The notes under the pieces are model-generated. The model ran no database searches. It saw only the letters and a program-made list of their open reading frames with translations, and was not told where the DNA came from. A DNA stretch of 64,000 nucleotides, taken from contig CP075526.1 of assembly GCA_025808555.1 (NCBI GenBank), positions 1,008,712-1,072,711 of the forward strand, written 5' to 3'. Position numbers and translations under genes: made by a program. Positions 25,201 through 26,372 of this stretch are shown one piece after another. The stretch is from Anaerolineales bacterium (GTDB lineage Bacteria > Chloroflexota > Anaerolineae > Anaerolineales > UBA11579). Each line of letters starts with the position of its first letter. The stretch's first letter is position 1.

Positions 25201-25257
25201 AAAAGTTATTACTTATAAGTTTTAACCCCCTCCCCTTTCGCGCAATAATAACTTTTT
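25201..25257. repeat. Long-loop AT-rich inverted repeat
   Basis: Arms AAAAGTTATTA (25201-25211) and TAATAACTTTT (25246-25256) with a 34-base loop, between the convergent MoaD-like and phenylalanine hydroxylase genes. The T-run at the end of the right arm could make it a terminator for the plus strand. The loop is C-rich. The rest of 25104-25274 holds nothing I can identify. Confidence 0.4.
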
Positions 25258-25274: not shown

Positions 25275-26006
25275 TCAACCCAAAGTGTCAAAATAGTGGG
25301 CCAATTCAGCCTTGAGTGCCTCGACCGAATCGATCACGAACAGCACCTCATTGAACGTATAGATGGCCTTCTCGTAACCGATCACATTCGCGACGGTGAA
25401 CGGCCGCACCGGTGTATTGCCCGCCATCACATGTTGGATCTCACCAAACGAAGAGATCAGACCCGCCCCAAAGATCTTGAGCTCGCCCGCCTCCCGGATC
25501 AGACCGAACTCGGTGCTGAACCACGCCAGGCGCTTGATGGTCTCGCGTTGGGCATCCGTAGCCCGCAGGAACGCCGGCGCAAACAGGTCCTGCAGCGCGG
25601 TGTACTCCGGCAGCACCATGAACGGCAAGTGCCCAAAGATATCGTGGAACATGTCCGGCTCGGGCGTGAAATCCATCTCGTGTCGGCCGCGCATGTAGTC
25701 CGTGATCAGGAATTGGCGTTTGGCAAAGTGGTGATACCACGGCACGGCATCCGAGTAGCGCACCTGCGTGCGCACCGTGCTCCAGCCCGTACGCGGTGTG
25801 ATCACCGCATTCAGATCCTTCAGTTGTGGAATGCGTTCAGCCGGCAAAGCCAGCAATTCGAAGCCGCGCAGATAATCGGCGCAGGCATACTGCTGCACAT
25901 TGGGCAGCTGGCGCACATACAGATCGCGCCATACCGCGTTCTGTTCCTCGCTGAACGCCATTTCGCGCCGGCGCACCGACACAACTTCACTACGTGGCAA
26001 TGCCAT
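25275..26006 (-). CDS. phhA: Phenylalanine 4-monooxygenase (phenylalanine hydroxylase)
   Basis: 243-residue pterin- and iron-dependent hydroxylase that converts phenylalanine to tyrosine. The iron triad is visible: PEPDMFHDIFGH gives His121 and His126, and STEFGL gives Glu166. The size matches bacterial catalytic-core enzymes (no ACT domain). The ATG at 26006 is chosen because GGAGGAAAG directly precedes it. Upstream lie a terminator and a tyrosine-rich leader peptide, indicating attenuation. No pterin-recycling gene is in the window. Confidence 0.95.
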   Translation of the reverse strand: MALPRSEVVSVRRREMAFSEEQNAVWRDLYVRQLPNVQQYACADYLRGFELLALPAERIPQLKDLNAVITPRTGWSTVRTQVRYSDAVPWYHHFAKRQFLITDYMRGRHEMDFTPEPDMFHDIFGHLPFMVLPEYTALQDLFAPAFLRATDAQRETIKRLAWFSTEFGLIREAGELKIFGAGLISSFGEIQHVMAGNTPVRPFTVANVIGYEKAIYTFNEVLFVIDSVEALKAELAHYFDTLG

Positions 26007-26026
26007 CTTTCCTCCAGGCAAACAAA

Positions 26027-26057
26027 AAAGACCACAGGCCGCCAGCCTGTGGTCTTT
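26027..26057 (-). terminator. Attenuator terminator upstream of phhA
   Basis: Thirteen-bp perfect stem (26045-26057 with 26027-26039), loop of 5, followed on the minus strand by a T-run. It lies between the leader peptide stop and the phhA start, so it must be read through or disrupted for phhA to be expressed. Confidence 0.88.
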
Positions 26058-26079
26058 GGGATTACGAGCGTGTTTCGAA

Positions 26080-26166
26080 CTAGTCTTCCAACAGAACGCA
26101 GGGCAAAGCCGCCGGAGTGGTCTCAGCGTAATAATAGGCGTACACGTAAAGCGCGTGCTTAACCAT
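26080..26166 (-). CDS. Tyrosine-rich leader peptide (28 aa)
   Basis: Short frame MVKHALYVYAYYYAETTP... of 28 codons. Five Tyr occur in seven codons (residues 7, 9, 11, 12 and 13), far above chance. It starts about 4 nt after the predicted transcription start and stops 23 nt before the terminator stem. Codons 25-27 (CUGUUGG, complement of 26088-26094) can pair with CCACAG of the terminator's 5' arm (6 bp with one bulge), a candidate antiterminator. Ribosome stalling at Tyr codons when Tyr-tRNA is scarce should favour phhA expression. An ATG four codons upstream (26178) is in frame but overlaps the -10 box. Confidence 0.8.
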   Translation of the reverse strand: MVKHALYVYAYYYAETTPAALPCVLLED

Positions 26167-26176
26167 GCGTGCTGGC

Positions 26177-26205
26177 ATTCTAGCAGAAGGGGATTGGCAG
26201 GTCAA
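26177..26205 (-). promoter_or_regulatory. Sigma70 promoter of the leader-phhA unit
   Basis: -35 TTGACC (complement of 26200-26205), 17-bp spacer, -10 TAGAAT (complement of 26177-26182). Each hexamer matches consensus at five of six positions. Start is expected near 26170. Confidence 0.82.
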
Positions 26206-26299
26206 CCGCGGCCCAGGTTGCTGGCGGAAGCCGTGCTATCTAAGCGGTAAGTCTGGGGAGAAGTTCAGGTTGCGGGGGGGAACAGAAGGATGATGCTGT

Positions 26300-26372
26300 G
26301 GGCGCGATAGGACTCGAACCTACGACCTTTGCGATGTCAACGCAACGCTCTAACCAGCTGAGCTACGCGCCC
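26300..26372 (-). tRNA. tRNA-Val (anticodon GAC)
   Basis: 73-nt cloverleaf on the minus strand: acceptor GGGCGCG/CGCGCCC, D-arm GCTCAGCTGGTTAGAGC, anticodon stem TTGCG/CGCAA with loop TTGACAT, and T-arm with GGTTCGAGTCC. Anticodon GAC reads valine. CCA is not encoded. Confidence 0.95.

Follow-up and report, generated by a model that had tools for sequence, protein, structure and literature searches.

In the window analysed here, a stretch of 64,000 nt from the genome of an Anaerolineales bacterium (Chloroflexota), the phenylalanine hydroxylase gene phhA is in all likelihood controlled by a ribosome-stalling transcription attenuator that senses charged Tyr-tRNA, judging from sequence and predicted RNA folds. 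Attenuators in which a ribosome stalls on a run of Trp, His, Phe, Thr, Leu or other codons are well established, and the features that characterize them can be recognized at this locus, namely a run of codons for the regulated amino acid, an intrinsic terminator, an alternative antiterminator and a downstream gene related to tyrosine.

The unit is located on the minus strand downstream of a tRNA-Val gene (Table 1). The sigma70 promoter (TTGACC-17-TAGAAT) proposed in the initial annotation is present and matches the consensus at 10 of 12 positions. It is followed by the 28-codon ORF described there, which encodes MVKHALYVYAYYYAETTPAALPCVLLED with Tyr at positions 7, 9, 11, 12 and 13, and the ATG of which is placed 10 nt past the -10 element, leaving no space for a Shine-Dalgarno sequence. 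Among the 599 short ATG ORFs in the window, MVKHALYVYAYYYAETTPAALPCVLLED is the only one with five Tyr in seven codons, and even three Tyr in seven codons are found in just one single other, unrelated ORF; because this Tyr density is unique, the run is not attributable to chance. Beyond the leader is the predicted intrinsic terminator, the palindrome of which has one copy genome-wide; the hairpin and its T-run were correctly recognized in the initial annotation, whereas the stem comprises 14 pairs by scan and not the 13 given. The leader stop codon is separated by ∼65 nt from the Shine-Dalgarno sequence (GGAGG) of phhA, and the identity of that gene is likewise borne out: its product matches Pfam PF00351 (Biopterin_H; E 8e-41), and the best NCBIfam models are those of phenylalanine 4-monooxygenase, with scores under the strict cut-offs (217 of 247 bits).

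Table 1. Features of the phhA leader region and its surroundings (positions within the window).
Feature	Position	Strand	Basis or remark
tRNA-Val gene	26298..26372	-	upstream of phhA unit, same strand
sigma70-type promoter, TG before -10	26177..26205	-	sequence scan; kept in relatives
Segment 1, start-codon region, predicted partner of segment 2 if ribosome-free	26151..26170	-	folds, inference
Tyr leader peptide ORF	26080..26166	-	ATG at 26166, TAG at 26082-26080
Tyr control codons 7 to 13	26128..26148	-	run kept in relatives
Segment 2, antiterminator strand GGCGGCTTTGCCCTG, codons 18-23	26099..26113	-	stalled-ribosome folds: pairs with terminator apex
Intrinsic terminator hairpin, GGC loop, then TTTGTTT	26027..26057	-	scan
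Antiterminator partner within terminator	26049-26037	-	folds
phhA Shine-Dalgarno sequence	26011..26015	-	
phhA, phenylalanine 4-monooxygenase, 243 aa, start 26006	25275..26006	-	profile matches; single copy in genome
A+T-rich palindrome GTTATTACTTATAAG/CTTATAAGTTTTAAC	25205..25226		just 3′ of phhA

The arrangement of promoter, near-leaderless Tyr-run ORF, terminator and phhA is found in the same order in ten genomes from three genera, comprising that of the window, seven more species of its genus and one species from each of two other genera in the same family. The leaders of these relatives include MAKPVTSAYTYLYYAE..., MNKHAGYVYVYYYAE..., MAFQNGSRDYAYYYAE..., MSNVNVSYTYSYYYAN... and MAKRNPRNLYRPYYYAV...; flanking residues vary across the ten leaders while the Tyr run stays, with its Tyr codons swapped synonymously, and the T-run after the hairpin is also conserved. 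The reading of the locus as a Tyr attenuator, first put forward in the initial annotation, is thus upheld by the alignment of upstream regions that had been suggested there, in that both the Tyr codons and the hairpin are retained in all ten leaders. The near-leaderless character of the mRNA, noted at the same time as unusual, is conserved as well. The spacing from the -10 element to the ATG is 8–10 nt throughout the ten, which implies that very few nucleotides, if any, precede the ATG in the leader mRNA, the start site being deduced from the predicted promoter.

The tRNA-Val gene upstream on the same strand raises the question of whether the hairpin is a mere terminator of the tRNA-Val unit and the Tyr ORF coincidental. 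This is scarcely credible given that the sequence upstream of the promoter diverges between relatives, whereas promoter, ORF and hairpin persist as a set, that the Tyr density is unique among the short ORFs of the window, and that an identical layout is found on tyrS (see below).

No Tyr-run leader was found upstream of the remoter aromatic hydroxylases in the class (∼50% identity or less), and searches of the genus for other Tyr-run leaders yielded none that was valid, the FYYYA matches lying on the strand opposite a YifB/ComM-like gene and those to YEYYY sitting within long repetitive ORFs. As a separate observation, a 16-codon ORF encoding MHKPAAQSKYSYYYYC is positioned directly 5′ of phhA in Archaeon GW2011_AR15 (L025:2873-2923), with its ATG about at the expected transcription start; the archaeal phhA is ∼61% identical to that of the window, a search for TyrA in this genome gave no match over the cut-off, and an ORF like MHKPAAQSKYSYYYYC was seen in no other archaeal relative examined.

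To examine the antiterminator, each leader was folded with its last Tyr codon under a ribosome footprint and with the transcript ending 6 nt early, such that the 3′ arm of the terminator is incomplete. Comparison of folds with and without a ribosome, as the initial annotation had advised, favours its scheme, since the pre-terminator transcripts of the ten leaders are predicted to adopt the antiterminator when the footprint of a stalled ribosome is in place. Its core is formed by leader 5′-GGCNGNN...CCUG-3′ and terminator 5′-CAGG..NNCNGCC-3′, the terminator side running from the apical half of the 5′ arm through the loop into the beginning of the 3′ arm, and the antiterminator and terminator folds are mutually exclusive. 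The leader side (segment 2) corresponds to codons 18-23 and not, as first supposed, to the vicinity of codons 25-27; at the latter position a match between CTGTTGG and CCACAG exists in L001, whereas L003 reads CAACTGG and has lost it, and this candidate was therefore rejected as not conserved. Segment 2 starts 5 nt beyond the footprint edge in nine of the ten leaders and 10 nt beyond it in the tenth.

Comparative evidence for this pairing comes from bases in the loop, which lie outside the terminator's own pairing constraint and covary with the leader (AGC with GCU in L003, AAC with GUU in L007, ACC with GGU in L009). In the alignment, 95.5% of the antiterminator cells are paired, compared with 27–57% when the partner is slid by 1–3 columns. 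Covariation is moderate against column shuffles, being nearly two SD above the mean with the score reached by 19 of 500 shuffles. Duplex energies tested against dinucleotide shuffles gave p values of 0.028 (L003), 0.025 (L007), 0.009 (L008), 0.010 (L009) and 0.001 (L010). The window's own leader has the weakest antiterminator of all, with one G.G mismatch and a duplex p of 0.27.

On this evidence, attenuation would proceed as follows. When Tyr-tRNA is ample, the leading ribosome would reach the leader stop codon, segment 2 would be masked or paired upstream and the terminator would form. When Tyr-tRNA is short, the ribosome would stall on codons 11–13 with its front edge 5 nt before segment 2, and segment 2, once freed, could pair with CAGG in the terminator 5′ arm, and onward through the loop into the start of the 3′ arm, before the terminator is completed. 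RNA polymerase would then read through into phhA, the product of which would convert phenylalanine to tyrosine. If the pre-terminator transcript is folded ribosome-free, or with its stop codon occupied by a ribosome, the antiterminator probability is ∼0 in nine of the ten leaders, whereas a Tyr-stalled ribosome together with a second at the AUG gives 0.62–0.99 in nine of the ten. With a single stalled ribosome, segment 2 in most leaders remains paired to the free 5′ end, and its release consequently needs either another ribosome at the AUG or steric exclusion of that pairing. Since the antiterminator strand is sequestered in this way by the 5′ start-codon region, the device might be a two-ribosome attenuator, in which readthrough would require a stall on the Tyr codons by the first ribosome and occupation of the leaderless AUG by the next, so that charging and initiation are read jointly; this elaboration is offered as a rather unlikely one. 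The AUG and the stalled P site are 33 nt apart, a distance into which two ribosomes would just fit.

At equilibrium, the complete terminator is the more stable fold in most species, and switching must therefore be kinetic. That energies favour the completed hairpin after full transcription would also suit a mainly translational or coupling control, in which a stalled ribosome or re-initiation aids phhA and the hairpin is a processing or stability element, as would phhA having its own Shine-Dalgarno sequence at the distance from the leader stop given above. The hairpin nevertheless bears the hallmarks of an intrinsic terminator, including a conserved T-run, and is clear of the phhA Shine-Dalgarno sequence, which leaves translational control very improbable beside transcription attenuation.

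Independent support for the sensing of tyrosine by such leaders is provided by tyrS. A covariance model built from the ten phhA leaders was run on 396 genomes of the class, and its best match outside the window was a leader, MLGLENVTRSAYVYYYAAPQSGERPLCAARDAM, with a terminator, in another family; the gene behind it is tyrS (TIGR00234, 382 bits), and its antiterminator segment, GGCCGCUUUGCGCUGCG, is similar to that of phhA. Both downstream genes fit a response to tyrosine, since PhhA makes Tyr and TyrS charges tRNA with it. Under an automatic rule, a Tyr-run ORF with a terminator was detected in 20 of 50 tyrS upstream regions compared with none of the 50 reverse complements, and when the loci used were scanned in 1986 windows of 450 bases, just 24 passed the same rule, the true ones included. 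A relaxed scan with 20 further regions added L135 and L150, bringing the count to 22 of 70 tyrS regions, nearly all with a terminator. These loci (L099, L100, L104, L110, L111, L114, L118-L124, L127, L130-L132, L135, L139, L143, L145, and L150) span many genera of the class, and a Tyr-run leader was found in none of the regions from the divergent TyrS group (∼50% identity or less). In many of the tyrS leaders, inspection by eye reveals GCCGC just past the Tyr run, complementary to GCGGC in the terminator 5′ arm; duplex tests are individually mixed and give a combined p of ∼1e-4 if relatedness is ignored. In the genome from which the window derives, the covariance model detected no attenuator besides that of phhA, and its matches L081-L085 have no Tyr-run leader, several of them being terminator-like hairpins. 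The tyrS Tyr-run leaders merit annotation as a regulatory family.

The tyrS leaders also bear on what the ribosome would respond to. Arrest by the nascent peptide, in the manner of TnaC and with free Tyr or Phe rather than uncharged Tyr-tRNA as the signal, could account for the good conservation, in most of the genus, of the tail that follows the Tyr run (AETTPAALPCVLLED). However, the codons of this tail coincide with the RNA pairing segment, the tail, unlike the Tyr run, is not shared across genera (NGKKKRLVLICVEIED, VTHTAGFGLPDEGNTP), and it is the Tyr run, not the tail, that the tyrS leaders have in common, so that peptide arrest is accorded little probability. Direct recognition of tRNA by a T-box was also considered: an Rfam scan at a permissive threshold detected no T-box or other Rfam element in the phhA region, nor did one at the gathering threshold at the tyrS loci.

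A Tyr-responsive phhA would make more metabolic sense than could be appreciated in the initial annotation, because prephenate dehydrogenase (TyrA, PF02153) and prephenate dehydratase (PDT, PF00800) were both absent from all ten Tyr-leader genomes in profile searches. Both profiles were matched in 14 of 14 control genomes, and since the ten genomes are 89–96% complete, this common absence is unlikely to be an assembly gap. With TyrA and PDT missing, phhA is probably the only internal source of tyrosine in this lineage, from imported phenylalanine. Conversely, two family members that have TyrA and PDT, G011 and G015, carry phhA without a Tyr leader. The region upstream of G015 phhA (L011) contains an ORF, MISNFIFPCTPVPVLNHRFS, that has no Tyr codon, together with a terminator-like hairpin, and is possibly a Phe-rich leader or a chance occurrence. 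These patterns suggest that phenylalanine hydroxylase persists in bacteria without the Phe/Tyr branch of the shikimate pathway because it supplies them with tyrosine, under a starvation switch of its own, a use of the enzyme that resembles the situation in animals.

Leader-peptide attenuators have been described for trp, his, pheA, and pheST (PMC1262725; PMC9413887), and these share with the leaders described here an ORF containing the regulated codons, alternative antiterminator and terminator structures, and a downstream amino-acid or synthetase gene. The present systems differ from them in their Tyr codons, their phhA and tyrS targets, their near-leaderless start and their occurrence in a Chloroflexota lineage. 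Leaderless ORFs are known from mycobacteria, where polycysteine attenuator ORFs have been reported (Canestrari et al., 2020, cited in PMC9031893); as far as that citing account describes them, they are similarly short, leaderless ORFs with a run of one codon that attenuate a downstream operon, although they involve cysteine, Actinobacteria and other targets, a comparison made at the level of description. In the open-access literature searched, no report was found of a Tyr leader, whether on phhA, on tyrS or elsewhere, and none of attenuators of this type from Chloroflexota. RNA-level control of tyrosine genes has been ascribed to T-boxes, with no attenuator reported (PMC1262725). The tyrS T-box of Firmicutes likewise acts on a tyrosine gene through transcription antitermination with Tyr-tRNA charging as the signal, but it senses the tRNA by direct binding, without a leader ORF. 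With the leaders described here, tyrosine, previously T-box territory according to the same source, would gain a leader-peptide attenuator, and the device would be extended to a poorly studied phylum as one regulatory family across synthetase and hydroxylase genes.
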